Positions 11,915-50,232 of a stretch of 64,000 nucleotides of DNA are shown here, in pieces; the first letter of the stretch is position 1; the number at the start of each line of letters is the position of its first letter. The stretch spans positions 10,595,903-10,659,902 of the forward strand of contig CM046332.1 of assembly GCA_025403435.1 (NCBI GenBank), written 5' to 3'. The notes beneath the pieces were generated by a model that searched no databases, was not told the origin of the DNA, and saw only the letters and a list, made by a program, of their open reading frames with translations. Source of the stretch: Artocarpus heterophyllus. Lineage: Eukaryota; Streptophyta; Magnoliopsida; Rosales; Moraceae. The translations under genes were made by a program, and so were the position numbers.

Positions 11915-11930
11915 ACTCTCCACCCCTAAA
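11915..11930 (-). other. Gypsy polypurine tract
   Basis: Minus strand reads TTTAGGGGTGGAGAGT directly against the 3' LTR: plus-strand primer site. Confidence 0.8.
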
Positions 11931-11962
11931 AGAAATTTCGCCCTCGAAATTTACATCTCATT

Positions 11963-13268: not shown

Positions 13269-13272
13269 ACTC

Positions 13273-15411
13273 TCAGAAATACAACGATCCATCTGCATGC
13301 ACGCTCCATTCTTCAAACTGCTCCCTGTTCTGAATCTGCGACCAAATCCCTTGCAAATGCTGATCCTGCCACTGACTTTGCTTCACCATCTGAATAAGAG
13401 CCGGGGTCGCCTCCACATGATATACCGAAACTCGATCATAGTCTTCATGATACAATAACCCGTACTCACTCACTATCGCATCCTTGCTCCAGTCCTCAAA
13501 AGCCAAACAAGCAAGAATCCCTGAAGACTTCCTGCTAAGCACGCCCACGACCACATTAGCTTTCCCGGGATGATACTGCAACGTAAAATCATAATCCTCC
13601 ATATACTCTATCCATCTATGCTGCCTCAGATTAAGATCCCTCTGAGTGAACAGATACCTCAAACTCTTATGCTCAGAGAAGACCTGAAACGACGCTCCAT
13701 ACAAATAACACCTCCAAATCTTCAGCGCGTGAATCACCGCCGCGAGCTCCAAGTCATGAGTAGGATAATTCCGCTGTGACGTCGTAGCTGTCTCGATCCA
13801 TACACAACCACACGTCCATGCTGCATCAACACGCACCCAAGCCCACGTCCTAAAGCATCTACGTAAACCCTCATACGGCTCGTCACTGCTAGGAATAACC
13901 AACACTGGAGCTGAAGTCAACCGGTTCTTCAATTCTTGAAAAGCAAGCTCACAATCTTCACCCCACTCAAACCTGACATTTTTCTTGATCAATCTCATCA
14001 ACGGAGCTGCTATCTTCGAAAAGTCCTTTAAAAATTTCTTGTAATAACCAGCAAGACCTAAGAAGCTGCGAATCTCCGCTATGTTCCTTGGTCATTCCCA
14101 TTCCACTATGGCTTCAATCTTGGACGGATCCACAGAAATGCCATGCTCCAAGATGACATGACCTAGAAACTTGACCTCAGTCAACCAAAACTCGCACTTT
14201 TCCCTCTTAGCATACAATTGGTGCTCCCGCAGAGTTTGAAGTACGATCCGAAGATGTTGCTCATGCTCCTCCCAAGTCTTAGAATACACAAGAATGTCAT
14301 CGATGAACACGATCACAAACTAATCCAAATACGGCCTAAATATCCTGTTCATCAAATCCATGAAAGCTGCTGGAGCATTCGTCAACCCAAACGACATAAC
14401 CAAAAACTCAAAGTGTTCATATCGAGTCCTAAAAGCTGTCTTGGGAATATCCTCTTCCTTAATCCTAAGTTGATGATAACCCGACCACAAATCAATCTTT
14501 GAGAAGTACCGCGAACCTCCCAACTGATCAAACAACTCATCAATCCTAGGCAAGGGATACTTATTCTTCACTGTAGCACGATTCAGCTGCCAATAATCCA
14601 CACACAACCTGAGAGTCCCATCATGTTTCTTAGCAAACAAAACCGGTGCTCTCCACAGAGATGTGCTATTCTGAATATACCCTTTATCAGCAAGCTCCTG
14701 AAGTTGCTTACTCAATTCTTTTATTTCTACCGGCGCGATCTGATAAGGTGCTATAGAAATCGATGCTGTTCCCGAAAACAACTCGATACCAAACTCAATT
14801 TCCCGATGAGGTGGTAACCCTGGCAACTCGTCGGGGAAGACATCCTCGAACTCATCAACCACCGGAATCGCTACACTTCCTCTCAAAACATAGGGCCCGC
14901 AATCTAGATTCGCAAGAAAAGCACAAAAAACTAGATTCCTTCGCCCTCCTAGACACGACTTCATGAGACGCTGACTCATTAACCAATCATCACCACCCTG
15001 GTAAGTGATCATCGTCCCCCTATCAGACACTAGGGTCACTTTTCTAAGTTGGCAGTCTACAACCGCATTATACCTGGACAACCAGTCCATCCCTAGAATT
15101 ACATCATATGAGCTCATGGGGAGTATAATCAAATAACTTTTCAAAATCTCATCCCCAATCTTTATTTTACAAGATTTACGGACACAATTCACACTCACCC
15201 GCCCCAAGGGAGAGGTTATAACTAGGGGTTCATTAAACTCTTCTACCTCTAATCTCAAGGCATGTACAAAAGAACTCAAAATGAGAGAATAAGAGGCACC
15301 TGTATCAAATAAAACGCGAGCTAAAGATCGAGAAACTAAGATCGTACCATCGACAACTGCGTTACCAACATGAGAATCTGAACCTCCAGATGCCATTGCA
15401 TGAACCTGCAC
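13273..15411 (-). pseudogene. Gypsy protease, reverse transcriptase and RNase H
   Basis: The 363-codon frame from 15411 holds the aspartic protease ([12 protein letters not shown], with DTGA as active site; [13 protein letters not shown]) and the first half of RT ([51 protein letters not shown] with a catalytic Asp). A TAG at about 14317 interrupts just before [11 protein letters not shown], which carries the catalytic [18 protein letters not shown] is followed by another stop at about 14092, then [20 protein letters not shown] and RNase H ([40 protein letters not shown]). A frameshifted patch near 13780-13880 replaces the usual Asp-containing RNase H segment. Together these would mature the polyprotein and make cDNA. 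Three or more breaks make it inactive. Confidence 0.92.
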
Positions 15412-15659
15412 TGGTGCCTTTCATTTTCCTCTACCAACATTGCTGGGTCCAGGATTATCCTGTCGATGCTGCTAGGATGGAGATGACTGCACACTAGCTG
15501 TACTTGACGCTCGATATTGAGGGACGCTACGCTGGAAGTGCTGCGGCTGCTGCCCTCGTACCAGATACGAAAACTGCTGAGGAGAGAACTGAGGATACTA
15601 CAACTGCGGATACTACTGAGGCGAAGGTAGGGTCTAAGGCTGAGACTGACGACTGGCAT

Positions 15660-16551
15660 CCTCCCCGGTCTAAGATCCAAGACGGGCACTCTTGATCGGG
15701 CAGTTCCTCTTGATGTGTCCGGGTTGCTGACAGAAATGACAATGGAAGCTGTAGGGATTGCTGCGCCTGCTACCAGATGAACTGTTGCTGCCACTGTTCG
15801 CGCCACCCTGCTTGCTCTTTCCCAAAGTTGGATGGCTACTGGTGATCTTCCTACCGCTCCTCTGTGATCCTCCTGAAGCCTTTGCTTGATCCTCACAATA
15901 CTGCGCATAATCATTTTCCACTGATATCGTTGACGACACAAGCTCTTCAAAACTCCTAAGTCGCAGAGCAACCAACTGTCGCCGAATAGGAGCCTTGAGT
16001 CCTTCCTAAAATTTAATGCACCTCTCACATTCCGATGCAACTGCTGATGGAGCAAACCTGGCCAACTCATTAAACCTTGCCTTATATTCCCGAACTGACA
16101 AATGACCCTGCTGCAACCTATAGAACTCAGCTGCCTTCTAATCTCTATACCCCTGCGAAAAATATCGATCATAGAACAGCTCCTCGAATCTGTCCCAACT
16201 GATATCACCGCCGCGTTCCAAACGCTTAGCCTGTTTCCACCAAGTGTTAGCACCACCCTCAAGCTTATATGCAGGAAACTCCACACGGTACTCCTCAGGC
16301 ACACCAAGGGTATCCAAATGCTTTACGATCGAATCCAGCCAATATTCTGCCAACTGCGGATCCCCATTACCATCAAAAGTTAGAATAGACGCACGCTGAA
16401 ATTTCTTAAAGTACGTATGCCAACGACCAACATCAAAATCCTCTAGTCTAACCTTGGCTGCCATCTGTTGGAAAGCCACAAACATAGACCTCATCATACC
16501 CTCATCATTTCTGAACTCTGCGTCAGCTGTCGAACGACGTCTAGGTGCCAT
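15660..16551 (-). pseudogene. Gypsy gag with CCHC zinc knuckle
   Basis: Starts MAPRRRSTADAEFRNDEGMM at 16551. The capsid-type domain shows HTYFKKFQRASILTFDGNGD, PQLAEYWLDSIVKHLDTLGV, WWKQAKRLERGGDISWDRFE and, after a TAG at 16138-16140, LQQGHLSVREYKARFNELAR. Another stop follows near 16008, then the frame continues through a Ser/Gly-rich segment to the zinc knuckle CHFCQQPGHIKRNCP (CX2CX4HX4C, intact) at about 15690-15735. Gag forms the particle and binds the element RNA. The start is about 105 bases from the LTR, a short leader. The two stop codons and the ending before the protease frame make it a pseudogene, although length and motif order are normal. Confidence 0.92.
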
Positions 16552-16641
16552 TCTCTCACTTTTGAAAATAAATTTTTGGACTGTCAGAGGTATTTCATTG
16601 CCAAACCTATGTGTGCATAATTTCCAAGGTTAATAACCTTG

Positions 16642-16653
16642 AGCTCTGATACC
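16642..16653 (-). other. Gypsy primer-binding site (initiator Met tRNA)
   Basis: Minus strand TGGTATCAGAGC, an exact match to the standard site, four bases from the 5' LTR. Confidence 0.92.
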
Positions 16654-16657
16654 ATTC

Positions 16658-18744
16658 TGTCATGCCCCGAGGTACGGGAGGTGACGTGGTGGATTATTTA
16701 AATTAATTAAAAGAGAATTTAATTAAAAATCAAGAGTTTAGGGGTTAAGTTAAATAATAAAATGTGAGAGTTTCAAGAAAGCCATTGCATGAAAAATAAA
16801 CAATAAACGTAGCGAGTATGGGTCCCACAGACCCACAACTTGTGTACACACATGGTACTGACAATATAATAATACAACTATAGTCCAAATACAAAGAAAG
16901 TTTAGGAACATTACATGCCTTGTTTAATTTATACAAATAGTCTAATAAATCCTTCTAATGCTCCTGAGTTCGGTCCGTTGAATCCTCTTCGAACCTAAAT
17001 GGGAAACCACCTAGAAGGGGGGGAAAATTTGAAAACAGAGAAAATGTGAGCGAAAGGCTCAGTAGGACAGTATTTTATCAAATTAGTTAAAAGAAACATT
17101 GAATAAATAAATAAATTTAAATAAAACTGTTCTTACCCAAAACAGTTTACTCGGACAACCAAAATTATCATTTTCTTTTCCTCGGCAAACCATAAGAATA
17201 TCACCACCGTAGTGGTCTAGTTGGGTTTCGAGACCTGCCCCCAAGGTTGATCGCTACACGACCCGATCACTGATATGGCATCATGTCTATGTGTTTATTT
17301 TCATCATCATTCAAAACCCATTTACCGAGTATTGTCATTTACATTTATTATGAAGTTCATTTCAATTCACGGTATATTAAAATACAACTGATAAATTCAT
17401 TTTCAAAGCCAACTCATTTTGAAACTAGGCTACCAGGAAATAGGATAGAAGTTCTACCTCGATACTCATACCGGTGCCCCATACCGTAATCCCGGTCCGC
17501 TATACGTTAGCTCCGCGGAACCACGAACGATCTTAGATACATACTAAGTCGATCAATATCTAGTTCGAGACATTCTATGTTACTAAACCATTTCATGATG
17601 TCATAGTGTGCTATTTGTATCTTTAAAATCATTCTACAAAGTTGGAATTTAAATCGGGGTTCAAAACAGTGAAAACGGGTGAAAAATCACAAAATTTCCC
17701 ATGCCCGGCCGGCCTACCGGACTCCCTGCTTCGGCCGGCCGAACTGTGCAGCTCGGCCTGTCGAAAACCAGGTCCGGTCGGTCGAAAATTCCCAGGTTCG
17801 GCCTGTCGGACAGATGAACTCTGGCCTGTCGATCGTTAATCCGGCCTGCCGAACACGTAGTTCGCCCTGCCGAACTGGGAAAACCCAGAAATTTCAGCCA
17901 CGGGTTTTTCAATCCCCAAAATCCAAATCTTGATTTTAACCTGTTTTTCTCAAATCTCAGGCATGGAAAACAATCATAGATGATAGAAAAACATACTAGA
18001 ACACTTTTAAACTCATTTAAACAAGATTTAAACACAAAAATCTCAAAAATCTAAAAATGGGAAAATGAGGAGAAAAATGAAAAATCTTGAATCCAATCCA
18101 TTTTTCTTCAATTTAAGCTTAGATTCTAGTTGTTCTAAGTTCATTTATCTCAATTCAAAGGTTTTCTAAGCTCAAACGAACTTAAATCTCAAAAATGCAC
18201 AAAATTGAAAATTTTGGAAAAAGTTTAGAAATTTCAAAACTAACCTCGAATCGAAGCTTCAATCCGCGTTCTCGGTTGCCAAATCACGTTCCTGAGCTTC
18301 CTTCTAGCTAACCTGAATGCTTGGATTCGAATTTGATTCAAAAATTTGAGAGAGAAATGAGAGAGAAGAGAGAAACCAAGAGTGAACGAGAGAGAGAGAG
18401 CTCACGGGTGGGAGAGGAGAGAGAGAGATCTGAGTGAGTGAGGAGAGAGGAAGGGAAGAGAAAATAAATAGAGAGAAACGGTGGGCAGTTTTACTGTGCA
18501 AAAACCAAAGGCCACCCACAGTTTTGTAAAACGGGATATTTTTAACATTTTACAAATTGTTGTGTTTTAAAACTCAAAACATCATTTTAAAACAATAAGA
18601 AATCATTTGAATTCATCAAATTAACAAAACAACTAAAATTCAAAATTTAACCAAATAATCAAATTAATGTTGAAACATTAATTATGGCACACTAATTCAT
18701 CATTTTACATTACAATAACATTAAATAAATTTCGGGGCGTTACA
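16658..18744 (-). repeat. Gypsy 5' LTR (right copy)
   Basis: 2087 bp, same ends (TGTCATGCCCCG...CGGGGCGTTACA) and same internal order as the left LTR: leader-like CT-rich strand at 18350-18470 and dyad array at 17709-17873. Small insertions and base changes only. Confidence 0.95.
17709..17873. promoter_or_regulatory. Phased dyad array in gypsy 5' LTR, eight copies
   Basis: Unit starts at 17709, 17731, 17753, 17774, 17798, 17821, 17841 and 17862, the same steps as in the other LTR (22, 22, 21, 24, 23, 20, 21). Units include CCGGCCTACCGG, TCGGCCGGCCGA, TCGGCCTGTCGA and CCGGCCTGCCGA. Base changes relative to the other LTR fall inside as well as between units. Confidence 0.85.
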
Positions 18745-18749
18745 GTACT

Positions 18750-19228
18750 CCTCAAAGGCTGGATCATCAGCAAGACTAATTGGTTGTTGAGCACTAGCCA
18801 AATATCTAGCATGCCATTCTCTTACTCTTTGTTGGTCATATGACCAATTGGTAACACTACCATCAGGGCTAAATTGAAGTGTTTGTTGACGACAATCAAC
18901 ACCACCTACACTATGCTTAGCTTCACATTTTTTGCGATGCCTCTCTAAGTGACCAGTGCCAGAAGAGGATTTATTTGTGTAGTCTTGTTTGCATACTTTG
19001 CAAATTGCGTCCTCTTCTGTTACACCATGCTCGTTTGTATGTGCTACGAGATCAAAGTAATTCCAAACTAGTGAAGTTTGTTGAATTTTCCTTTTGCCCT
19101 TACGAGTGACTTCAGAGGAGCCATCAACTTGAGATAGCAAGTCAACTCCAATTTCTTCTAGTGGATCATTAAATTGTTCTTCTTCGTTGATCACCAATGA
19201 ATGTTGCTCTCCCTCTAGTGTGATGATG
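18750..19228 (-). pseudogene. hAT transposase, N-terminal BED zinc finger part
   Basis: The frame is open from about 19228 (after a TGA) and reads YGIITLEGEQHSLVINEEEQ without an ATG in that stretch, so the true start is upstream, perhaps across an intron whose acceptor would be the TTTTTTATTGAAG sequence near 19232-19244. The BED finger is SLVWNYFDLVAHTNEHGV then AICKVCKQDYTN ... GTGHLERHRKKC, with Cys pair and His residues in place; it binds the element ends. Further down come REWHARYLASAQQPISLADD and the sequence stops in PAFEEY at the gypsy insertion (TSD GTACT). The gene resumes at 9832 going left. Apart from the insertion this half has no frame break. Confidence 0.88.
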
Positions 19229-23334: not shown

Positions 23335-25072
23335 AGTTGGAAAAATAGTACGCAGCGGAAGTTTTAAAATTTTTATATTAGAGTATTTTCTAAAACACAA
23401 GTTTGATGCGCTACATGCATAAATTAACTAGATCTTACTAACCTTATATACGCCGAAAAGCTACCATAATCAGTGAAGAGAAGTAATGTTGTAGAAGGAC
23501 CTCGACCAACCAACCTTCTTTGTTATTCTTTATCCATGGTCAGAGTGAGTATGGGCTCACGTCGTTCAGCTTTTTCACCAGGTGACTCTTCTTCCAACTA
23601 ATTGAGAAATACCCAAAGCTATAGTTCGTGATTTGTGAACAACAGCTTTCCCGGGAGTTGTAAAGTCTTACTCTAGATTTCTCAACTAATCTAAATAATA
23701 ATGAGACTCATTCCCCTTTATGTAGAGGTTGGGCCCAAGAGTCAATCCTTATCAGATAAGGCCTCAAAATTTGAATCAGAATCAATATCTAATAAAATTT
23801 TGCATGAAAACATGTGATACTTTTATCGCCAGGTCGGCAAGCCTAACTGGAAGATCAGTCTGCCGATCCTCCTCAATCGGTAAACCGAACTTAAAGATTG
23901 GTCTGCCAAACCTTCGATAAAAGATCCTTGCAAATCTTTATTTCCCACTCGAGATTCTTCGGATAGAGCATCAGTTTTAATTCAAATAACCCAATAGAGA
24001 AGTTATCTGATTAAAACAGTCATATCTAGATAATCTCTAGGAGGATAAATATTCTTGATAATTCAATAAGTTTATCTTGAATTAATTCAAAATTAATCCA
24101 ACTAATAAACAAACATGAATTATCTAATCCCAATAATTCGACAAGTTTATCTTGAATTAATTTTATCACAGAATTAATTCAACTGATAAACAAACATGAA
24201 TTATCTGATTTTTACCGAATTTCAACCAATCTGATAAATCTCACATAAGTTACCAATTATTAAAAAAGCACGCTGTATCGTTATAGGATTTTTGTGAGCT
24301 AGCAAGGGGACCTGATGGACCTATATAGTTCAAGCTCCCGATAATTATGAAACCCAATGTCCAAAATATACATTTCATAATTATCAACTCTAATGTTACT
24401 TCACTAAAAGCTTGGAGCTACACTCTCGAACCATATAAAATTACAAAACCCAAATAGCTAAGTCTTTATGACATATCATAGTGTATTGTATGGCTATAGG
24501 ATTATCTATAACCGGATTAAGGACAAGTTCTGTCTTACTTTCCTGATTAGTTTTATCTTACGTTCCATTATCTCACCATCAAAAAACTTACCCTCAAAAG
24601 GTGGTATACCATTTGGTTACACCTATGTATCCAAGTGGTTGGACGCTCTAGTTTTTCAATTATAAGATAACACATATAAGAGGATATCAACTACTCCTAA
24701 AGAGGAGCTATAGATTCCATATCTATGAATAATAGGTCTACGCTATCAAGAGTCATGCCTCTACGTACTGGCATGCGTGCCATTATTAAAATGTGGATGT
24801 CACCCTTTGGTATATCAAAAGACATAAGTCAAGACAACGGGCCCATTATTCATCTCAGGATTAAGATACAATACATATAATTGTCTAAAGTGAATCGATT
24901 TGCTGAGACATAATTATTAATCTAAATCAATTCACTTTATGTCCCGACTCAACACATCGTCACCTATGACAATGTGCTAATGTTTCTATTTGCGGAGTCC
25001 ACCTCCAATGGTCAAGACAAACCATCTCCCGTTACAGATATAGACAACGTAACAATCTTTGCATGAATAAAG
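23335..25072 (-). repeat. Copia B 3' LTR, outer portion
   Basis: About 1.74 kb of the LTR up to the TAAAG where A inserted; the remaining 272 bp are at 34752-35023. Contains a dyad array with unit starts at 23834, 23855, 23877 and 23898 (steps 21, 22, 21), and, about 115 bases away on the downstream side for the minus strand, a TATA-like CCCCTTTATGTAGAGG (plus-strand text) near 23712. Confidence 0.88.
23834..23909. promoter_or_regulatory. Phased dyad array in copia B 3' LTR, four copies
   Basis: TCGGCAAGCCTA, TCAGTCTGCCGA, TCGGTAAACCGA, TTGGTCTGCCAA at steps of 21, 22 and 21 bases, upstream of the LTR TATA region on the minus strand. Confidence 0.8.
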
Positions 25073-26514
25073 TGTTAGACATGTATGCCCTAAGGAGTAA
25101 AAATGTAATACGTTTTTGGAGACATTTTTTATCAATAAAGAATTTATTCATTTATATATACCAAATCTTGTCCTCTTTACGTTCATATTTGTTGAATGTA
25201 TGATAAGTAAATAGTAGTTTGAGACTGTCGATCTAAACCTTAAGAATTGGGCATATGATGGTATGATTATGCAAAAGACACGATTCTTAAGGTGACGGTC
25301 TAAAACATATGATCCGCAATTGAGGGAATAAAGTTGGGTGCTTTATTCATGTAAAGATTGTTATGTTATCTATATCCCTATAAGGAGATGGTTTGTCTTG
25401 ATCATCGGAGTTGGACTCCGTGAATAGAAACATTGACATGTTGTCATAGGTGATGATGTGTTGGATCGGGACATAAAGTGAATTGATTTGGATTAATAAT
25501 TCTATCTTGGCAAATCGATTCACTTTAGACAGTCATTTGTATTGTATCTTAATCCTGAGATGAATAATTGGCCCGTTGTCTCGACTTGTGTCTTTTGATG
25601 TGCCAATGGCTGACTCCCACATCTTAATAGTGGTATGCATGCCGGTACGTTGGAGGCATGACTCTTGATAGCGTAGACTTATTATTCATAGATATGGAAT
25701 CCATAGCTCCTCTTTAGGAGTAATGATATCCTCTTATATGCGTTGTCTTGTAAATGAAAAACTAGAGTGCTCAACCATTTGGATACATAGGTGTAACCGA
25801 ATGGTATACTATCTTTGGATGGTAAGTTTTCTAATGGTGAGACAATTGAACGTAAGATAAAAACAATCCGGAAAGTAAGACAGAACTTGTCCTTAAGCCG
25901 ATTATGGATTATCATATGGGGATACGATACACTTTGATATGTCATGGAGACTTAGCTACACGAGATTCGTAATTCTATAAAGTTCAAGAGTGCAGCTCCA
26001 AGCTTTTAGTGGAGTAGCGTTGGAGTTGATAGTTGTGAAATGTATATCTGGGATATTGGGTTTTATAATTATAGTGAGCTTGAACTTTATAGGTCCATTT
26101 TGGTCCCCTTTGCTAGCTCACAAAATCCTGTAACGACACGGCGTGCTTTTCCAATAATTGGTGACTTATGTCGGAATTATCAGATTGGTTTAAAATTTGT
26201 AAGAATCAAATAATTCATGTATGTTTATTGGATGAATTAATTTTTGTAATAAAATTAATTTAAGATAAACTTGTTGAATTATTGGGATCAGATAATTCTT
26301 GTCTGTTTATAGGTTGATTTAATTTTGGATAAATTAAATCAAGATAAACTTGTAGAATTATTGTGAATTGATTTATTTTCTTAGAGATTATCTTGATAAA
26401 GTTTGTTTTGATAAGATATTTTCTCTATTAGGTTATTTGAATCAAAAATGAGACTTTATCCTATAGAATCTCGGGTGGAAAATAAAAGATTCGCGGAGAT
26501 TTTTTCACAGGAGT

Positions 26515-26569
26515 TCGGCCTACCGAATGACGTGTTCGGCCTACCGATGGGGTCTGTTCGGCCTGCCGA
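26515..26569. promoter_or_regulatory. Phased dyad array in copia A 5' LTR, three copies
   Basis: TCGGCCTACCGA at 26515 and 26536 and TCGGCCTGCCGA at 26558 (steps 21 and 22). The array ends about 119 bases before the TATA box, the place of an upstream enhancer in U3. Confidence 0.85.
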
Positions 26570-26680
26570 TCAGCGAGCGATAAGATTACGCGTTTTCACG
26601 TGGATCTTATCAGATATTGATCTGAACTTGATTCTGTTTCGAGTTTTTGAGACCTAATCTGATAAGGACTAACCCTAGGA

Positions 26681-26695
26681 CCAATAGCTATAAAG
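26681..26695 (+). promoter_or_regulatory. LTR promoter of copia A (CCAAT and TATA)
   Basis: CCAATAGCTATAAAG combines a CCAAT-like word with a TATA box; a transcription start would be expected near 26720. The 3' LTR keeps CTATAAAAG at about 34354. Confidence 0.65.
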
Positions 26696-27086
26696 GGGGA
26701 GTGAGTCTCATGATTTACTCATATTAATGAGAGATTAAAAGTGATACTGTTCTAGTGAGCATCTGAAAACTCCCTAAGAGCTTTTGTTCACATATCACGA
26801 ACACCAGCTTTGGGTTCTCTCTCTTGGTTGGAAGCAGAGTCACCGGTGGAAGAGCTGAATGTGTGAGCCCACACTCACTCCGGTTGTGGATAGAGAATAG
26901 CAAAGAAGACCAGTTGGTTGAGGCTCTTCTGGAACATTACTTCTCTACATAGGTTGTGGAGGTTCTTCACACAAAGGTTAGTAAGATCTGTCTAATTTAT
27001 ACATATAGCATGTCAAACTTGTGTTTTGGAAATTACTCTGACGAAAAAATTTTTAAAATTCCGTTGCGCACCGCGTTTTCAACAAA

Positions 27087-27099
27087 TGGTATCAGAGCC
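27087..27099 (+). other. Copia A primer-binding site (initiator Met tRNA)
   Basis: TGGTATCAGAGCC, an exact match to the standard site, two bases after the LTR. Confidence 0.92.
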
Positions 27100-27596
27100 A
27101 TGGTTTTTACATAAATTTACAAGTTTGTGATCATGATATATGCATAAATTTTGTGATCTTTATCTCTCCTATGCTTGAATTGAATTTTATAGAGAGATGG
27201 CACTTTAGGTTTCCATATAATATATATGTTGTCATGGATTATGTGGTGAATGTTTATTAATTAATTATGGTTGATTAAATCGTTGTTTAATTATTTATTA
27301 ATTAATTAATACCGGTTATGGTTCCTTAGAGTTTAGAATATGTATCTAGGTTTTTCATGTAATTAGATGGCGAACTATCATCTTCGTCTAGGAATTATTA
27401 TTTATTTTAAATTTATAAAATTTTGTAATTAAATAATTATTCGGAGAAGACGGATCTAGAAAATGGATCTAGAAGAATGATGATGGTGCCCCCAGGTATT
27501 TCCTGAGTCTCTAATTTTATGTTTTTGAATTGTTGAAAATAAAATTAATGAATTGCATTAAAATTGTATTTTTTGGAATGAGGGATTACTGCTCGG

Positions 27597-27799
27597 TCGG
27601 CATGCCAGACATCACAGTGTGGCAGGCCGATGGTCACAGATCGACAGGCTGGACATGTGGTTCGGCAAGCCGACAGTGGGGCAGAAATTGGCTGGCTCTG
27701 CTGGCAGGCCAAACTTTTAGTTCGGCAGGCCAAACTTTCATGGGTCGGCAGGCCGATGAAGCATGACCGGCAGGCCGATCACCCAGATCGGCCTGTCGA
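27597..27799. promoter_or_regulatory. Phased dyad array in copia A leader, nine clear copies
   Basis: Unit starts at 27597, 27619, 27641, 27662, 27701, 27722, 27745, 27767 and 27788: steps 22, 22, 21, 39, 21, 23, 22, 21. Most read TCGGCAGGCCGA or a close variant, the reverse complement of the LTR motif; the last (TCGGCCTGTCGA) has the LTR orientation. A degenerate tenth site may sit in the 39-base gap. The array lies in the untranslated leader about 1.0 kb before gag. Confidence 0.85.
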
Positions 27800-28290
27800 C
27801 CAAGAGCTGAAAAATTTTCAAAAAATGTGCAATTTTTGCAGTACAGTTTTAATTTTATTTTTGAGGTGATTCTGAGAAACATTAAATTTGGATATGACCA
27901 AAAATATGAAGTATTTGATTCATACGGGATTGAAGACTTGAAGATGGGTATTACATGAAGAAGGATACATCTTGAGGATTCAAGGATGAAGAATCGATAA
28001 AATGTCTCGATTATTCTCTTGTAATCTTAGTTTTTTATTCTCTAGGGTGAAACCATAATATTACGGTTATTATTAATTTGCTTGTAGCTTTGCTTGATTG
28101 CTTTGCTTGTCTGCATTATAATATGATTTGCCATGTATATTGATAACATGTTAGATAGAATAGGGAGTGCCGCTCATATTAAAATTGTTCATGCATATTC
28201 TTAAAATAAAATCTTGACTTCAAAAGATTGAGTGGGAAAAGGTTTTCGAAGAAAGGACCTAAGGCCTCCATCGTTGGTCCATAGGCAGAA

Positions 28291-28620
28291 CATGGTGGTC
28301 CCGACCCCTAGGAAGGGATTTCTATCATGTACCAAATTGGATCTCTGAAAAGATAGGGTATTTTAGTGTGATTTATGGTTGCACACCCCTAGGTGGTGAT
28401 TATAAATCATGGATAAAATATTGAAACGATGGTTATACACTCACGTTAATTTTATTATTAACCTCCCCTAGGAGCTCTATTAATAAATTTATTGGCCAAA
28501 GAAACGATTATTAATATATGCTGGATCATACGGTCCTGGATGGCATATATTAATCAGGAGGGGATCCGTGTTCCTGATTGAATTTGGAATGACTCCCCTA
28601 GGAGCTTGTTGAATTCTGAG
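28291..28620 (+). promoter_or_regulatory. Four leader stem-loops built on CCCCTAGG, copia A
   Basis: CCCCTAGG occurs at 28305, 28386, 28465 and 28595. Each sits at the centre of a local inverted repeat: ACATG...CATGT with TCCC...GGGA (first), TGATTTAT...ATAAATCA with CACC...GGTG (second), TTATTAA...TTAATAA with CTCC...GGAG (third), GAATT...AATTC with CTCC...GGAG (fourth). Located in transcribed leader 190-500 bases before the gag ATG. The same four are found in B and C. Confidence 0.75.
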
Positions 28621-28661
28621 TTGGGAATTATCGTTGTAAGGTTGTGATATTTTCAAGGTTT

Positions 28662-28737
28662 TGACACATAAACACATTTGTATGATTTACATGATTGTGT
28701 GACACATAAACACATTTGTATGATTTACATGATTGTG
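28662..28737 (+). repeat. Perfect 38-bp tandem duplication before copia A gag
   Basis: A 38-base unit beginning TGACACATAAACACATTTGT and ending ACATGATTGTG occurs twice head to tail. Elements B and C have a single copy, so the duplication is specific to A. Confidence 0.9.
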
Positions 28738-28805
28738 TTATCTTACTAAATTATTATTTTATGTTTGCTTATGTTTGGTATATGATTCTTTATTGTAGAT
28801 TGAAA

Positions 28806-29072
28806 ATGTCTAAAAACGCTTTATCATCGATGCTTGACAAAAACCAATTAACCGGTGAGAATTATAACAATTGGAAACAGAACCTGGACATGGTCCTATC
28901 CTTTGAGAAACTGAAATATGTACTGACAACCCCTTGTCCTCCCAAGCCTACGGGAGACTCAAGTAATGAGCAATTCCAAGCGTACGATTGCTGGAAAGAT
29001 GCTAATGATCAGGCCCACTGCTATGTTATGGCTAGCATGAACAACGTGCTGCAGGCTCAACTAGGATTATGA
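28806..29072 (+). pseudogene. Copia A gag, N-terminal part
   Basis: ATG at 28806 gives MSKNALSSMLDKNQLTGENY and NNWKQNLDMVLSFEKLKYVL, the opening of plant copia Gag (nucleocapsid and particle protein). I chose this ATG because B and C start at the same place and it follows the leader hairpins; an ATG 90 bases upstream is also in frame but precedes leader-type sequence. The frame meets TGA at 29070-29072 because of a small indel near 29060; the normal reading continues one frame over (DYETAK, then a TAG near 29083) into the next open stretch. Confidence 0.88.
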
Positions 29073-29088
29073 GACTGCGAAGTAGATC

Positions 29089-30243
29089 TTGGATAATCTT
29101 GAGGTTATGTTTGGAGGCCAGGCCATAACAAAGCGGCAAGAGGCTTTTCGGAAACTCTTAAACTGTAGACAGAGACCAGGGACATCTGTAAAGGAGCACA
29201 TGATGTTGGTCATGGGTTACCTCGCTGAGGCTCAAACCAATGGAGCCGACATCGATGCTGAAACTCAGATGACTATGGTCTTTGAGACTCTGTCTAAGGA
29301 ATTTATTCTGTTTAGAGCTACTTTTAATTTAAGCAATAGACGGGATATGACCTTGATAGAACTGATGAAACAATTACAGGAGTTCGAACTGCTGATCAGG
29401 GAGTCTCCTGCTGGTGGTGAGCCCAACATGGTGGCTGCTTCTGGTTCCAATCCTAACTTAGGGAATGGAAAGAAGCAACGGGCCAAGAACGGGAAGTCTT
29501 CTATTCCTGCAGCTACCAAGAGCAAGAAAAAGAAGAAGAGGAACCCAAAGAAGCTTAAGTGCTTCTTCTGTGGAAAGGTCAGGCATATTAAGAAGCATTG
29601 CAAGGACTTCCTTTTCAAAGGAGGTAGGTGTGATCTTCCATATTTAGAAACTTGTTTGGTTGAGGAATCCAGTGACATCTGGGTCATAGATTCTGGAGCA
29701 ACTAATCATGTTTGTGTTTCTCTGCAGGGATTCAAAGATACAAGAAGTCTGCTACATGAGGACTTCACGCTTCGGATGGGCGATGGATCCTTGGTCTCAG
29801 CGGAAGCAGTGGGAGATGTCCATCTTTACTTTGATAATTATAGGAATTTAATTTTGCGAGATTGTTTTTATGTTTCTAAATTTAAAAGGAATTTAATTTC
29901 TGTATCTTGTTTATTTAAAGACTCCTACATGGTATCTTTTAATGAAAAAGTGGTGATTTGTAAAAACAAATCTTTTATCTGTTCTGGATGGATGCAAAAT
30001 AATCTATATTTTATCAAACGTAAGATGGACTTATTGCTTAATGCTGAGATAAATGATAATGACTCTAAAAGACTTAAAACTTCTCACTCTAATAAGACCT
30101 ATCTTTGGCATTTGCGCCTTGGTCATATTAACCTGAACAGAATTCAAAGGTTAGTAAGGGATGGACCTTTAAGTCACTTAAAGGTGGAATCTATACCTCA
30201 ATGTGAATCTTGTTTGGAGGGTAAAATGACCAAAAGACCATAA
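29089..30243 (+). CDS. Copia A Gag C-terminus, protease and pre-integrase segment
   Basis: Open for about 385 codons; the first in-frame codon is not a real start since the reading continues from the broken N-terminal part. Order: UBN2-type Gag body (RQRPGTSVKEHMMLVMGYLA), a Lys-rich run, zinc knuckle CFFCGKVRHIKKHC (CX2CX4HX4C, with the usual Gly before His changed to Arg), protease active site WVIDSGATNHVC (DSGA), then the pre-integrase domain WHLRLGHINLNRIQRLV with CESCLEGKMTKRP. The stop at 30241-30243 lies at the entrance of the integrase core, where the B copy reads on. These parts build the particle, cut the polyprotein and begin integrase. Relics rather than a working protein, but unusually intact for this window. 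Confidence 0.9.
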   Translation: MDNLEVMFGGQAITKRQEAFRKLLNCRQRPGTSVKEHMMLVMGYLAEAQTNGADIDAETQMTMVFETLSKEFILFRATFNLSNRRDMTLIELMKQLQEFELLIRESPAGGEPNMVAASGSNPNLGNGKKQRAKNGKSSIPAATKSKKKKKRNPKKLKCFFCGKVRHIKKHCKDFLFKGGRCDLPYLETCLVEESSDIWVIDSGATNHVCVSLQGFKDTRSLLHEDFTLRMGDGSLVSAEAVGDVHLYFDNYRNLILRDCFYVSKFKRNLISVSCLFKDSYMVSFNEKVVICKNKSFICSGWMQNNLYFIKRKMDLLLNAEINDNDSKRLKTSHSNKTYLWHLRLGHINLNRIQRLVRDGPLSHLKVESIPQCESCLEGKMTKRP

Positions 30244-31228
30244 AGGTCTAAGGGCAATAGGGCCGAAGGGGTTTTGGAACTTGTGCATAGTGATGTTTGC
30301 GGACCGATGAACATCCGGACACGAGGAGGGTATGAGTACTTCGTCACTTTTATTGACGATTACTCAAGATATGGGTATGTGTACCTGATGCACCACAAAA
30401 AGCAAAACTTATGATAAGTTTAGGGAATTTTGGGCTAAAGTGGAAAAGCAATTGGGTAGACCCATAAAGGCACTTCGATCTGATCGAGGTGGGTAATACC
30501 TTTCTGATGAGTTCTTGGGACACTTGTTAGAGAATGGGATTTTATCCCATTTGACTGCGTCGGGCACTCCGCAGCAGAATGGCATAGTGGAGAGAAGAAA
30601 TAGGACTTTGTTGGACATGATTAGGTCCATGATGAGTTATTCATCATTGCCTTTATCCTTTTAGGGATATGCACTACAAACTGCATGTTATCTTTTGAAC
30701 AATGTGCCTTCAAAATCGGTCTCTAAAACTCCTCACGAGTTGTGGACAAGAAGGAAGACATCCTTAAACCATATTCGCATATGGGGATGTCTGGCTCATG
30801 TCTTGTTTAAGGATCCGTATAAGTTGGAAGCACTTTCAAAAGTTTGCGTGTTTGTAGGATATCCAAAAGGGACTAAAGGGGGTTATATTTATAACCCAAA
30901 GGAAAATAAAGTCGTGGTTTCAACTAATGCAACTTTCCTTGAGAAGAGTTACATGGACGACTTTAAACCTCGAAGCAAAGTGGTGCTTGAGGAGTTAAGG
31001 GGTGATCCATTCACTCCGGAGGTTCCGAACGAAACCATTCCGATCGGTGTAGAAAAACCAAACAAACCTGAACAACAACCTCATGGGCTTCGACGTAGTG
31101 GGAGGATCGGGCGTCAACCTGAGAGGTATATGTTCAATGGGGAGGTCTTCTTGGCTGAACCGGATGAACATGACAAGGATCCTTATACTTATGTAGAAGC
31201 TATGGAGGATGTTGATTCAAGACTCTAG
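30244..31228 (+). pseudogene. Copia A integrase, frameshifted
   Basis: ELVHSDVCGPMNIRTRGGYE holds the first catalytic Asp of the DDE core and FVTFIDDYSRYGYVYLMHHK follows. A one-base change near 30398 shifts the frame; the second Asp segment (LRSD..GG) and the catalytic Glu segment (NGIVERRN) are readable in another frame around 30470-30600. From 30695 a 177-codon open stretch gives the C-terminal part: KTPHELWTRRKTSLNHIRIW then GCLAHVLFKDPYKLEALSKV, VFVGYPKGTKGGYIYNPKEN, and the basic linker GLRRSGRIGRQPERYMF. A TAG at 31226 closes it ten bases before the RT frame. Integrase would insert the cDNA; this copy cannot. Confidence 0.9.
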
Positions 31229-31237
31229 ACAGAGGCC

Positions 31238-32758
31238 ATGAACATAGAGATGAAATCTATGGAGACTAATCGGGTCTGGGAGCTTGTGGATCTTTTCGAA
31301 GGGGTAAAACCTATAGGGTGTAAGTGGATCTACAAGAGGAAAAGAGGAGTGGATGGAAAGGTCGAAACTTTTAAGGCTAGACTGGTAGCTAAGGGTTATA
31401 CGCAAAAGGAAGGAATCGATTATGAGGAAACCTTTTCGCCTGTAGCCATGCATAAGTCTATCCGAATTCTCTTGTCCATAGCTGCCGCTCTCGACTACGA
31501 GATTTGGCAGATGGATGTCAAGACGGCTTTTTTGAATGGCTATCTTGATGAGTCCATTTATATGATACAACCAGATAGGTTCAAGGTCGCGGGTCAAGAG
31601 GGTAAGGTTTGTAAGTTGCTAAAGTCAATTTATGGACTTAAGCAGGCATCCCGTTCTTGGAACATAAGATTTGATCAAGTGATCAAGACTTATGGGTTCT
31701 CACAAAATGTGGATGAACCATGTGTTTACAAACACATAAAGGATGGGAAGGTGGTTTTTCTACTGCTCTATGTAGATGACATTCTGCTAATTGGCAATGA
31801 CGTTGGGGCGTTGTCATCGGTTAAATTATGGTTGACCAAGCAGTTTGACATGAAGGACTTGGGTAAGGCTAATTTTGTTCTCGGTATCCAGATCTTTCAG
31901 GATAGGAAGAACAAAATGATAGCTTTGTCACAGGCCGGCTACATAGATAAAATTCTTAGGAGGTTTGCAATGCAGGATTCCAAGAAAGGTGGGCAACCAT
32001 CTAGGTCTGGAATTACTCTTTCTAAGAAAGACTCTCCAAAGTCTTATGAAGAAAGAGAATACATGAAGAAGGTGCCTTATGCTTCGGCAGTGGGTAGTCT
32101 CATGTATGCCATGCTTTACACACGACCGGATGTTAGCTATGCGGTCGGGATTGTAAGTCGATTTCAGGCGGATCCAAGACCAAACCATTGGGTTGCAGTA
32201 AAGCATATTTTCAAGTACCTGAGAAGGACTCGAGGGTATATGCTTGTGTATTCGGGTGAGGACTTAACTCCTCTAGGATACACTGACTCAGATTTTCAAT
32301 CCTGTCTGGATTCTAGGAAATCTACTTCAGGGTTTGTGTTTACTCTAGGCAGCGGTGCCATTAGTTGGAGAAGTGCGAAGCAAGATTGCACTTCGGATTC
32401 AACGATGGAGGCCAAGTATGTGGCGGCTAGTGATGCTTCAAAAGAAGCAGTGTGGCTCCGCAAGTTCCTTGGGGATCTTGAGGTAGTTCCTGGTATGGAT
32501 AAAGTGGTATCACTGTACTGTAATAACAGTACGGCGGTAGCTAATGCTAAGAAACCAAGATTTCACAAGAGGAGTAAGCATATTGATCGGAAGTATCATG
32601 TGATAAAGGACTTCGTTGAGGGTGGGCATGTCGCGGTGTGCAAGATCGCGTCAGAGGACAATTTAGCTGATCCATTTACGAAGACACTTACTGGGAGAGT
32701 CTTCGAGAGGCATTTGGAAGCTATGGGGATGCGAAATTTGCTGTATTTACTCACTTAG
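31238..32758 (+). CDS. Copia A reverse transcriptase and RNase H, open frame
   Basis: 506 codons without a stop. RT opens MNIEMKSMETNRVWELVDLF and [40 protein letters not shown] has the first catalytic Asp, KLLKSIYGLKQASRSWNIRF follows, LLYVDDILLIGND is the YxDD box. Connection: YTRPDVSYAVGIVSRFQADP. RNase H: LGYTDSDFQSCLDSRKSTSG (Asp), STMEAKYVAASDASKEAVWL (Glu), YCNNSTAVANAKKPRFHKRS and KHIDRKYHVIKDFVEGG. The usual YCDNS has become YCNNS, replacing a catalytic Asp with Asn, and YTDADFQ has become YTDSDFQ. In the element this is the tail of a longer polyprotein, so the Met at 31238 is not a natural start. The 3' end lies 14 bases before the LTR. Confidence 0.95.
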   Translation: MNIEMKSMETNRVWELVDLFEGVKPIGCKWIYKRKRGVDGKVETFKARLVAKGYTQKEGIDYEETFSPVAMHKSIRILLSIAAALDYEIWQMDVKTAFLNGYLDESIYMIQPDRFKVAGQEGKVCKLLKSIYGLKQASRSWNIRFDQVIKTYGFSQNVDEPCVYKHIKDGKVVFLLLYVDDILLIGNDVGALSSVKLWLTKQFDMKDLGKANFVLGIQIFQDRKNKMIALSQAGYIDKILRRFAMQDSKKGGQPSRSGITLSKKDSPKSYEEREYMKKVPYASAVGSLMYAMLYTRPDVSYAVGIVSRFQADPRPNHWVAVKHIFKYLRRTRGYMLVYSGEDLTPLGYTDSDFQSCLDSRKSTSGFVFTLGSGAISWRSAKQDCTSDSTMEAKYVAASDASKEAVWLRKFLGDLEVVPGMDKVVSLYCNNSTAVANAKKPRFHKRSKHIDRKYHVIKDFVEGGHVAVCKIASEDNLADPFTKTLTGRVFERHLEAMGMRNLLYLLT

Positions 32759-32763
32759 TGCAT

Positions 32764-32772
32764 GTGGGAGAT
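32764..32772 (+). other. Copia A polypurine tract
   Basis: GTGGGAGAT immediately precedes the 3' LTR. The B copy at 35024-35035 has the same tract in reverse. Confidence 0.75.
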
Positions 32773-34751
32773 TGTTAGACATGTATGCCCTAAGGAGTAA
32801 AAATGTAATATGTTTTGGAGACATTTTTTTTCAATATAGAATTTATTCATTTATATATACCAAATCTTATCCTCTTTACGTTCATATTTGTTGAATGTAT
32901 AATAAGCAAACAGTAGTCTGAGACTGTCGATCTAAACCTTAAGAATTGGGCATATGATGGGATGATTATGCGGAAGACACGATTCTTAAGGTGACAGTCT
33001 AAAACATATGATCCGCAATCGAGGGAATAAAGTTGGGCGCTTTATTCATGTAAAGATTGTTATGTTGTCTATATCCCTATTGGGAGATGGTTTGTTTTGA
33101 CCATTGGAGTTGGACTCCGTGAATAGAAACATTGGCATGTTGTCATAGGTGATGATGTGTTGGATCGGGACATAAAGTGAATGGATTTGGATTAATAATT
33201 CTATCTTGGCAAATCGATTCACTTTAGACAGTCATTTGTATTGTATCTTAATCCTGAGATGAATAATGGGCCTGTCTGTGTCTCTTGATGTGCCAATGGC
33301 TGACTCCCACATCTCAATAGTGGTATGCATGCCAGTACATTGGAGGCATGACTCTTGATAGCGTAGACTTGTTATTCATAGGTATGGAATCCATAGCTCC
33401 TCTTTAGGAGTAATGATATCCTCTTATATGTGTTGTCCTATAATTGGAAAACTGGAGCGCTCAACCATTTGGATACATAGGTGTAACCAAATGGTATACT
33501 ATCTTTGGATGGTAAGTTTTCTAATGGTGAGACAATGGAATGTAAGATAAAAATAATTGGGAAGGTAAGACATAACTTGTCCTTAAGCTGATTATGGATT
33601 ATCATATGTCCTGGAGACTTAGCTACACGAGCTTCGTAATTCTATAAAGTTCAAGAGTGCAGCTCCAAGCTTTTAGTGGAGTAGCGTTGGAGTTGATTGT
33701 TGTGAAATGTATATCTGGGATATTGGGTTTCATAATTATCGTGAGCTTGAACTTTATAGGTCCATTTTGGTCCCCTTTGCTAGCTCACAAAATCCTGTAA
33801 CGACACAACGTGCTTTTTCAATAATTGGTGACTTATGTCGGAATTATCAGATTGGTTTAAAATTTGTAAGAATCAAATAATTCATGTCTGTTTATTGGAT
33901 GAATTAATTTTTGTAATAAAATTAATTTAAGATAAACTTGTTGAATTATTGGGATCGGATAATTCTTGTCTGTTTATCAGTTGATTTAATTTTGGATAAA
34001 TTAAATCAAGATAAACTTGTAGAATTATTGTGAATTGATTTATTTTCTTAGAGATTATCTTGATAAAGTTTGTTTTGATCAGATATTTTTTCTATTGGGT
34101 TATTTGAATCAAAACTGAGACTTTATCCTATAGATTCTCGAGTGGAAAATAAAAGATTCGCGGAGATTTTTTCACGGGAGTTCGGCCTGTCGAATGACGT
34201 GTTCGGCCTGCCGATGGGGCCTGTTCGGCCTGCCGATCAGCGAGCGATGAGATTATGCGTTTTCACGTAGATCTTATCAGATATTGATCTGAACTTGATT
34301 CTGTTTCGAGTTTTTGAGACCTAATCTGATAAGGACTAACCCCAAGACCAATAGCTATAAAAGGGGAGTGAGTCTCATGATTTACTCAGATTAATTGAGA
34401 GATTAAAAGTGATACTCTTCTAGTGAGCATCTGAAAACTCCTTAAGAGCTTTTGTTCACATATCATGAACACCAGCTTTGGGTTCTCTCTCTTGGTTGGA
34501 AGGAGAGTCACCGGTGGAAGAGCTGAATGTGTGAGCCCACACTCACTCCGGTTGTGGATAGAGAATAGCAAAGAAGACCAGTTGGTTGAGGCTCTTCTGG
34601 AACGTTACTTCTCTACACAGGTTGCGGATGTTCTTCACACAAAGGTTAGTAAGATCTGTCTAATTTATACATATAGCATGTCAAACTTGTGTTTTGGAAA
34701 TTACTCTGATGAAATTTTTTTAAAATTCCGTTGCGCACCGCGTTTTCAACA
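32773..34751 (+). repeat. Copia A 3' LTR
   Basis: 1979 bp. Dyad units at 34182, 34203 and 34225 (steps 21, 22). Lacks a short segment present in the 5' LTR near 25918-25935, and keeps the TATA box. Followed by TSD TAAAG. Confidence 0.95.
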
Positions 34752-39425: not shown

Positions 39426-39675
39426 TTCCTATGGACCAACGATGGAGGCCTTAGGTCCTCTCTTCGAAAACCTTCTCCCACTCAATCTTTTGAAATCAAG
39501 GTTTTATTTTAAAAGACATGCATGAACAATTTAAATGAGCGGCACTCCCTATTCTATATGGCATGCTATCAATATACATGGAAAATCATATTATAATATA
39601 GACAAGCAAAGCAATCAAGCAAAGCTACAAGCAAAATAATAATAAATAACCGTAGTATTATAGTTCCACCCTAAA

Positions 39676-40352
39676 GAATAGAAAATAAAGATTACAAGAG
39701 AATAATCGAAACATATTATCATTTTTTATGTAATGCCCATCTTCAAGTCCTCAATCTCGTATAGATTGAATACTTCATATTTTCGGTCATATCCAAATCT
39801 TAATGTTTTTCAGAACTGTCCTAAAAATAAAATTAAAACTGCATCAAAAACTGCACCTTCTTTAGAAAAATTTTTAGCTCTCTATCGGCAAGCCGATCTG
39901 TGTGATTGGCCTACTGAATTGAAAAGTTTGGCCTATCGCCAAAGCCACCAGATTTCTGCCCCATTAACAACCTGCCAAACCTCATGTCTGGCCTACCGAT
40001 CTGCTACCATCAAAGAATAGAAAATAAAGATTACAAGAGAATAATCGAAACATATTATCATTTTTTATGTAATGCCCATCTTCAAGTCCTCAATCTCGTA
40101 TAGATTGAATACTTCATATTTTCGGTCATATCCAAATCTTAATGTTTCTCAGAACTGTCCTAAAAATAAAATTAAAACTGCATCAAAAACTGCACCCTCT
40201 TTAGAAAAATTTTCAGCTCTCTATCGGCAAGCCGATCTGTGTGATCGGCCTACTGAATTGAAAAGTTTGGCCTATCGCCAAAGCCACCAGATTTCTGCCC
40301 CATTAACAACCTGCCAAACCTCATGTCTGGCCTACCGATCTGCTACCATCGG
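39676..40352 (-). repeat. 339-bp tandem duplication in copia B leader, carrying dyad arrays
   Basis: A 339-base stretch beginning AGAATAGAAAATAAAGATTA is repeated head to tail with only a few differences. Each copy has dyad units: starts 39885, 39906, 39928, 39967 and 39988 in the first and 40224, 40245, 40267, 40306 and 40327 in the second, then 40349 and 40368 beyond it. The step pattern 21, 22, 39, 21 matches the A leader. The duplication is absent from A and C. Confidence 0.88.
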
Positions 40353-40768
40353 CCCACCGATCTACGATCGATCTGCCAACAATTGGTATTCAAAAACAGC
40401 CTGCTACCGTCTTTTTTGAATGATTATTTAATTATAAAATTCTTACAAATTTAAAAATAAATAATAATTCCTAGATGGAGATGATAGTCCGCTATCTAAT
40501 TACATGAAAAACCTAGATACACATTCTAATCTCTAAGGAATCATAACCAGCATAAATTAATTAATTAATAATTTAATTAAATAATAATTTAATTAACCAA
40601 AATTAATTAATAAACATTCACCATATAATCCATGACAACATATAAATATATAGAAACCCTAGAGTGCCCACTCTCAAAAAAATTAAATTCAAGTATTGGA
40701 GAGATCAATATCACATAATTTATATGTATAGCATGATCACAAACTTGCAAATTTATGTAAAAACTATG

Positions 40769-50093: not shown

Positions 50094-50232
50094 TTGGCCA
50101 GCCAGTCATAACCTATCGACCTGCCAAATTTGAGAGTTCGGCCTGCCACTAGAGCTGATAGAATATTTCCCCATAGACGGCCTGTCGAACTACGACCATT
50201 GGCTTGCCGAACCTAAGGGTTTGGCTTGCCGA
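50094..50232. promoter_or_regulatory. Phased dyad array in copia C leader, six copies
   Basis: Starts 50094, 50116, 50138, 50177, 50199 and 50221: steps 22, 22, 39, 22, 22. The 39-base step in the middle is the same as in A and B although C is the most decayed copy. Confidence 0.82.

Follow-up and report, generated by a model that had tools for sequence, protein, structure and literature searches.

In a 64,000-nucleotide stretch of the Artocarpus heterophyllus genome (GenBank assembly GCA_025403435.1, contig CM046332.1, positions 10,595,903 to 10,659,902 of the forward strand; hereafter the window, numbered from its first letter), the leader of a Ty1/copia retrotransposon, here called copia A, carries a row of short near-palindromes (dyads) at positions 27597-27799 of the plus strand. 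The same stepped dyad was found in the control regions of four families of long terminal repeat (LTR) retrotransposons belonging to the two superfamilies, Ty1/copia and Ty3/gypsy, which suggests that the four families rely on the same DNA-binding protein. The motif, its step and orientation, the family distribution of the examined arrays, the gain and loss of units and the preservation of the dyads are direct observations. They lead us to propose, with moderate confidence, that the arrays may be rows of duplex sites for one dimeric or near-symmetric nuclear protein, activating or anti-silencing in its effect, on which all four families would depend.

Dyad arrays in copia A and in a gypsy element

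The nine dyads of the copia A leader have the form TCGGC-NN-GCCGA, with centres mostly AG on the sense strand, and lie at 27597, 27619, 27641, 27662, 27701, 27722, 27745, 27767 and 27788. Their steps of 22, 22, 21, 39, 21, 23, 22 and 21 are exactly those given in a first-pass annotation made from the sequence alone, which had described nine clear dyads. That wording was generous: nine positions are in register, but the arms depart from TCGGCNNGCCGA by 2, 2, 3, 0, 3, 1, 0, 1 and 1 mismatches, in that order, being perfect in two of the nine, and a single dyad reads exactly TCGGCAGGCCGA. The density is far above chance: the stretch 27590-27805 (GC content 0.60) held seven matches at two or fewer mismatches, whereas 2000 dinucleotide shuffles of it averaged 0.15 and never exceeded 3. 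Over the whole window, 51 strand-matches to the motif were counted for 0.92 expected.

Copia A occupies 25073-34751 on the plus strand, between LTRs at 25073-27084 (2012 bp) and 32773-34751 (1979 bp), within a 5-bp target site duplication, TAAAG. Copia domains were present by Pfam, and the named relatives of its reverse transcriptase (RT), from Citrus, Vitis and Acer, showed about 70% identity. A protein labelled as Clostridioides difficile (P0046) was likewise 70% identical to the plant copia RT and is probably a contamination. In addition to the leader array, both LTRs contain arrays that the first-pass inventory, correct for the leader and for the gypsy element described below, had missed. 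The one in the 5' LTR (26515-26569, plus strand) comprises three dyads at steps 21 and 22 with CT centres on the sense strand; it corresponds to positions 1443-1497 of the 2012-bp LTR, that is, to its lower half, and lies 120 bp upstream of a putative TATA box, CTATAAAGG, at 26688-26696 (plus strand). Its counterpart in the 3' LTR (34182-34236, plus strand) also has three dyads at steps 21 and 22.

The second element, gypsy W, lies on the minus strand at 9838-18744, with LTRs at 9838-11914 and 16658-18744 that are 94.8% identical, and Pfam identified in it a protease, RT, RNase H and Tf2-1-like SH3 domains. Eight dyads at steps of 20-24 occupy 17709-17873 in its 5' LTR (minus strand), and eight at equal steps occupy 10890-11054 in its 3' LTR (minus strand). 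Some of the eight in-register positions have 3 or 4 mismatches. The LTR array is real, as had been claimed: it held six matches at two or fewer mismatches, whereas 2000 shuffles averaged 0.24 and gave no more than 3. No clear TATA box was found in the gypsy element. A blastn self-comparison of the window (E 1e-5, over 60 bp) gave no similarity linking it with the copia elements. Relic open reading frames (ORFs) resembling transposases, which we take to be of the hAT type, lie on both sides of gypsy W, at 8229-9769 and 18721-19197; a zf-BED domain was found by Pfam in the latter, and the part of 8229-9769 that was scanned had no Pfam match.

One site in four retrotransposon families

Perfect dyad pairs 0-30 bp apart numbered 10573 in the window's own 985-Mb genome, and 8238 of them had a gap of 9 or 10 bp, equal to a step of 21 or 22; the reversed control gave 0 for both counts. 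Loci around perfect pairs were then sampled: eight of 3 kb (L017-L024), twenty of 10 kb selected to cover a variety of spacers, twenty of 3 kb taken from a consecutive list on one contig (C1), and three picked for odd-looking spacers. By coordinates, the fetched loci covered 45 of the 50 listed perfect-pair places. An array was called from at least two dyads at two or fewer mismatches (three, or one perfect), a threshold that misses decayed arrays, such as the LTR arrays of the older element copia D, and splits some arrays in two; sampling by perfect pairs likewise leaves arrays with decayed dyads alone outside the collection. All 95 arrays from the window and 48 loci, some of them overlapping, and all four from the three odd-spacer loci fell, by their flanks, into four LTR families. 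The count of 95 includes L017-L024, several of which lie within larger loci; these eight were left out of the analyses of co-variation, orientation and inner spacers.

The families comprise two Ty1/copia lineages, copia A and a Sirevirus, and two Ty3/gypsy families, gypsy W and gypsy-2. The earlier observation on two elements, that motif and step are common to both superfamilies, is thereby supported and strengthened. Gypsy-2 has LTRs of about 3.3 kb with two arrays each; it was initially treated as two families (F3 and F4), a division that was dropped after alignment, and the two were merged. Array flanks are family-specific and unrelated between families. The RT of the Sirevirus and that of copia A share 37% identity over 499 amino acids, and the loci of these two families, when compared, gave no alignment at all. 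The RT of gypsy W and that of gypsy-2 share 65% over 189 amino acids (L038) and 44% over 373 (L043), and no alignment was found between the compared loci outside an RT-region match. With such divergence of RT and flanks among four families, the arrays are therefore not tied to one lineage.

Sireviruses are marked by the junction CA/ATTGG followed by TATCAGAGC and by a long linker with several AGGGGGAG polypurine tracts, further marks being a poly-C signal in the integrase and an enlarged gag. In this genome the family is represented by L036, L037 and L040. The junction of L036 reads CAATTGGTATCAGAGC, that is, CA/ATTGG plus TATCAGAGC; the linker holds three AGGGGGAG in L037 and four in L040; and L040 shows an env-like ORF together with the expected order of arrays, one in the LTR and one just after pol, upstream of that ORF. 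The LTR array is in the upper half, at 422-736 of 1492 in L036. The env-like ORF (L040:5163-6401, 412 amino acids) matches Pfam PF20167 (Putative plant transposon protein) and has the dyad array directly upstream; a 361-amino-acid part of it found two distant homologues only in the protein collection. Judged by its linker, copia A is not a Sirevirus: its pol ORF stops 14 bp before the 3' LTR, and AGGGGGAG occurs just once in the whole element, at 26694 within the 5' LTR. Its primer-site junction is CA/AATGG/TATCAGAGC from 27083 in the window copy and CA/ATTGG in a related copy (L026).

The common site of the four families is TCGGC-AG-GCCGA, usually with an outer G...C, (G)W-TCGGC-AG-GCCGA-W(C). 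With the two sides pooled, G was the commonest letter two bases outside the dyad in every family (50-83%), and the intervening base was T or A in most cases. In an analysis that counts gypsy-2 as two sets, the profiles of the six flank positions correlated between families at 0.68-0.91, a level matched by 1-17 of 720 column permutations. Steps of 21 or 22 made up 70 of 92 in copia leaders, 50 of 54 in the copia U3, 26 of 49 in gypsy W, 32 of 53 in the first array of gypsy-2 and 39 of 107 in its second, and 15 of 33 in the Sirevirus LTR. The GC content of the arrays was 0.47-0.64, and the observed/expected ratio of CpG was 1.59 in the copia A U3, 1.10 in gypsy W, 1.00 in the Sirevirus LTR, 0.98 in gypsy-2 and 0.68 in the copia A leader.

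The centre was AG or CT in 80-100% of sites, depending on the array, and, among the 70 arrays that had three or more oriented dyads, its orientation was uniform in 58; ten of the twelve others were copia leaders with exactly one exception each. On the sense strand the centre is AG in the copia leader, gypsy W and gypsy-2 array 1, and CT in the copia U3, gypsy-2 array 2 and the Sirevirus. Of note, the leader and LTR arrays of copia A are thus oppositely oriented, as are those of gypsy-2 (L042, L043), which is not the case in the Sirevirus.

Further information came from copia C and copia D, older minus-strand relatives of copia A with arrays at the same two places, LTR and leader. The three belong to one lineage and form a nest at 23336-52673, in which copia A sits inside an LTR of copia C and copia D adjoins. 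Copia C has four dyads at steps 21, 22 and 21 in its 5' LTR (41297-41372, minus strand) and the same in its 3' LTR, the one split by copia A (23834-23909, minus strand); its decayed leader array (39885-40379, minus strand) lies partly inside a 339-bp tandem duplication (39673-40350, 98.8% identical) that takes in part of the dyads. Copia D has six dyads at steps 22, 22, 39, 22 and 22 in the leader (50094-50232, minus strand), three at steps 21 and 22 in the 5' LTR (51255-51309, minus strand) and four at steps 21, 22 and 21 in the 3' LTR (43919-43994, minus strand), so that its two LTRs differ by one 21-nt unit. Indels among the arrays of the three elements likewise correspond to whole units, of 21 nt in the LTR and of 21 and 44 nt in the leader.

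When the two LTRs of one element were compared, which differ by changes that postdate insertion, dyads had changed more than spacers (30/216 vs 8/135), as methylated CpG would lead one to expect. Among copia A, C and D, in contrast, dyads differed less than spacers (108/350 vs 106/265), and they were the better kept in 14 of 15 comparisons (LTR 12/12, leader 2/3). The contrast between the two levels gave a Fisher p of 0.0013, to be read with the non-independence of the comparisons and a possible misassignment of units. It is the pattern that selection on the dyads during the active life of the elements would give, and we regard it as indicative.

A proposed common binding protein and the competing explanations

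We propose that a dimeric, or near-symmetric, sequence-specific nuclear protein of the plant occupies the TCGGC-AG-GCCGA sites. As these are most often about two helical turns (21-22 bp) apart, bound dimers would be neighbours along a single face of the helix. The arrays occupy non-coding control regions, namely the copia A LTR upstream of the TATA box, the copia A leader, the Sirevirus LTR and the region upstream of its env-like ORF, and the LTRs of the two gypsy families. There the bound protein might activate the LTR promoter or keep the region free of silencing, as proposed for the Sirevirus palindromes and shown for the targets of VANC proteins in Arabidopsis. Each family would have come to depend on this protein through separate acquisition of the sites, and the partner could come from the host or be an anti-silencing protein of the VANC type, encoded by a transposon. 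DREB/CBF proteins recognize the DRE/CRT (dehydration-responsive element/C-repeat) core, RCCGAC; they were rejected as the factor, since C follows GCCGA in 3-26% of half-sites, depending on the family.

Several observations weigh against this proposal. A simple homodimer would not be expected to have a site with an asymmetric centre such as AG, and the outer G...C preference is absent in gypsy-2 array 1, where the left side has A and the right side G. Out-of-phase steps recur (18, 26-27, 39 and 49-53), in keeping with the low share of 21/22 steps in the second gypsy-2 array. The Sirevirus LTR array does not adjoin the TATA-like CTATAAATAG but lies about 560 bp upstream of it, and the single exception to the better preservation of dyads was the leader comparison of copia A with copia C (58/85 for dyads vs 55/71 for spacers). 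Furthermore, as RNA, the copia leader array folds better than its shuffles (z -4.47, 0/200), and so does the gypsy array (z -3.50, 3/200).

Among the alternatives, the one that survives best, as a lesser but real possibility, is common descent, in which the array module passed from element to element through recombination or template switching and then diverged. An identical 12-bp majority sequence, AG centre included, in four families is what copying would give, and the whole, untrimmed spacers of the gypsy and of the reverse-complemented copia leader were slightly alike (8/500 shuffles). This low value is put down to the outer flank bases. When two bases were trimmed from each end, the inner spacers showed no significant likeness between families in 15 array comparisons; the best cross-family value was 18/300 shuffles, the best of all being that between gypsy-2's own two arrays (7/300), and the flanks of the arrays are unrelated. 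Likeness beyond the 12-mer, a point that the first-pass annotation had raised, therefore extends to the outer G...C two bases away and not to the inner spacers. Within the copia lineage, untrimmed spacers were alike between leader and LTR (3/500) and between the leaders of copia A and copia D (9/500). An old transfer would leave no trace, as spacer identity is already about 0.5 even between copia A, C and D. Hence, of the two options offered earlier, transfer of a module or convergence, the unshared inner spacers speak less for a recent transfer than for sites that would have been acquired repeatedly to suit one factor, an old transfer being compatible with the same data.

A somewhat less likely alternative, which we consider doubtful, is that the binding protein is encoded by a transposon, as a VANC-like anti-silencing or trans-activating factor, and that unrelated LTR families took up its target sites for protection. 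In support of this idea, VANC6 motifs also occur in the unrelated element AT9TSD1, which is hypomethylated in VANC6 lines, as reported in the text consulted of PMC5735166; the arrays described here are directional too, with turnover of units, and 99 of the 99 examined lie in transposable elements. On the other hand, no candidate gene for such a binder was found, the only accessory ORF seen being the Sirevirus env-like one (PF20167), which was met in a single family among the loci covered, and the VANC motifs are not palindromic (PMC5735166, same text). A broader version of this scheme, tentative and in our view rather unlikely, is a shared anti-silencing "commons": one protein, transposon-encoded or diverted from the host, would keep LTR retrotransposons of both superfamilies active, each family having built its stepped, directional arrays independently around a motif set by the genome and not by the descent of the elements.

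Less likely still is that the module acts as RNA, with the palindromes, or pairs of them, folding into hairpins for packaging, dimerisation or small-RNA silencing. The folding excess of the leader and gypsy arrays would fit, as would the small-RNA hotspots described at maize Sirevirus palindromes in the portions covered of PMC10760457 and PMC5311732. However, palindromes fold by construction, and the copia A U3 array did not fold significantly better than its shuffles (z -1.26, 26/200). No clear excess of Watson-Crick co-variation was detected in the arrays, the lowest value being 64/1000 shuffles (copia U3). Nor was there an overall bias toward sense C>T, the change that RNA pairing tolerates (C>T 113 vs G>A 144); a tendency in that direction was confined to the arrays of the Sirevirus (6 to 1 and 1 to 0). 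The sense orientation of the centre varies among arrays, so the would-be loops differ, hairpins need no fixed two-turn step, and targeting by small interfering RNAs may be a side effect of a function of the DNA. The lack of clear co-variation and of an overall C>T bias, the occurrence of both orientations, which a duplex site tolerates, and the two-turn step together favour the view that the arrays would act as duplex DNA sites rather than as RNA hairpins.

Finally, a neutral minisatellite or a dispersed satellite captured by several elements is very improbable: slippage is evident in the unit-sized indels and in a 155-bp higher-order duplication (83.9% identity) of the Sirevirus LTR, but spacers inside one array are no more alike than shuffled ones (copia leader 93/500, gypsy 99/500) while the dyads are kept, which contradicts a satellite, and the one motif stands among unrelated spacers and family-specific flanks in four families, all examined arrays being in LTR elements.

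Returning to the binding-protein proposal, the presence of one stepped and oriented site in four LTR families, drawn from both superfamilies, implies that they have a trans-acting partner in common, and the genome provides thousands of natural arrays and a defined bait for finding it. The distribution also suggests that the control modules of retrotransposons may follow the host genome rather than the phylogeny of the elements.

Comparison with known palindrome and motif arrays

A pattern scan of IMG/VR returned six GC-rich contigs (GC content 0.59-0.73) that were judged to be chance matches, and RT scans of IMG/VR gave no match. From a pattern scan of GTDB, ten bacterial records were obtained; the one examined, a contig of a bacterial metagenome-assembled genome (CAITRH010000420.1, L009:4990-5260), carries a 22-bp minisatellite, which was set aside as unrelated. 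Its tandem unit begins with TCGGCAGGCCGA and continues with TGGACCACAG, close to one unit of the copia leader (GGCAGGCCGATGGTCACAG), which is probably a coincidence in a GC-rich minisatellite. Among the titles and abstracts of open-licence PMC papers, subscription papers being outside this scope, no report of a palindrome array common to copia and gypsy elements was found, and nothing pertinent turned up there for the letters of the motif or for LOB-domain proteins.

The first-pass annotation knew of no described module of this form, which was wrong in part. In 2010 Bousios et al. (PMC2829016) described the repeated motif (RM) of Sireviruses, palindromes with a CGG-CCG core present in at least eight copies per element. 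According to the sections of that paper covered here, RM clusters occupy the LTR's upper half, close to the TATA box and upstream of it, and, in elements with an env-like gene, in the linker upstream of it; the RM was reported to define a CpG island and to be specific to Sireviruses and absent from classic copia elements; and a role in activation or anti-silencing was proposed, with no protein partner named in the literature covered. The dyads described here resemble the RM in that TCGGCNNGCCGA is a palindrome with a CGG-CCG core, and in their number, at least eight per element (nine in the leader and three per LTR in copia A, eight per LTR in gypsy W). The Sirevirus of this genome (L036, L037 and L040) fits the RM layout, with arrays in the LTR and before env. 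Unlike the RM, however, the motif is also found in a non-Sirevirus copia element, in its LTR and leader, and in two gypsy families, and is therefore not restricted to Sireviruses. Moreover, the 21/22-bp step, the outer G...C and the uniform orientation of the centre are not among the RM features given in those sections.

In maize, Copia LTRs contain structured palindromes and Helitrons carry the same palindrome, Ty3 elements being generally without a peak, as far as the available part of PMC10760457 goes. That case resembles ours in that a palindrome is common to different classes of transposable elements of one genome. It differs in its motif, CACCGGACNNNGTCCGGTG, in its framing in terms of RNA structure and small RNAs, and in the general lack of a Ty3 peak.

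The other close parallel is provided by the targets of the VANC proteins of VANDAL transposons (Hosaka et al. 2017, PMC5735166), which, in the text consulted, consist of dense, short, same-orientation motifs in non-coding regions, gained and lost as tandem repeats. Dense motifs of one orientation in non-coding regions are also what we observed, and both systems show gain and loss of units and a motif that occurs in an unrelated transposable element as well. In contrast, the VANDALs are DNA transposons whose 9-bp motif is not palindromic and whose binder, which removes methylation, is known and encoded by the element, a protein for which no equivalent was found here. Set beside these systems, what is new is one identical, stepped and directional site common to both superfamilies of LTR retrotransposons in one genome.
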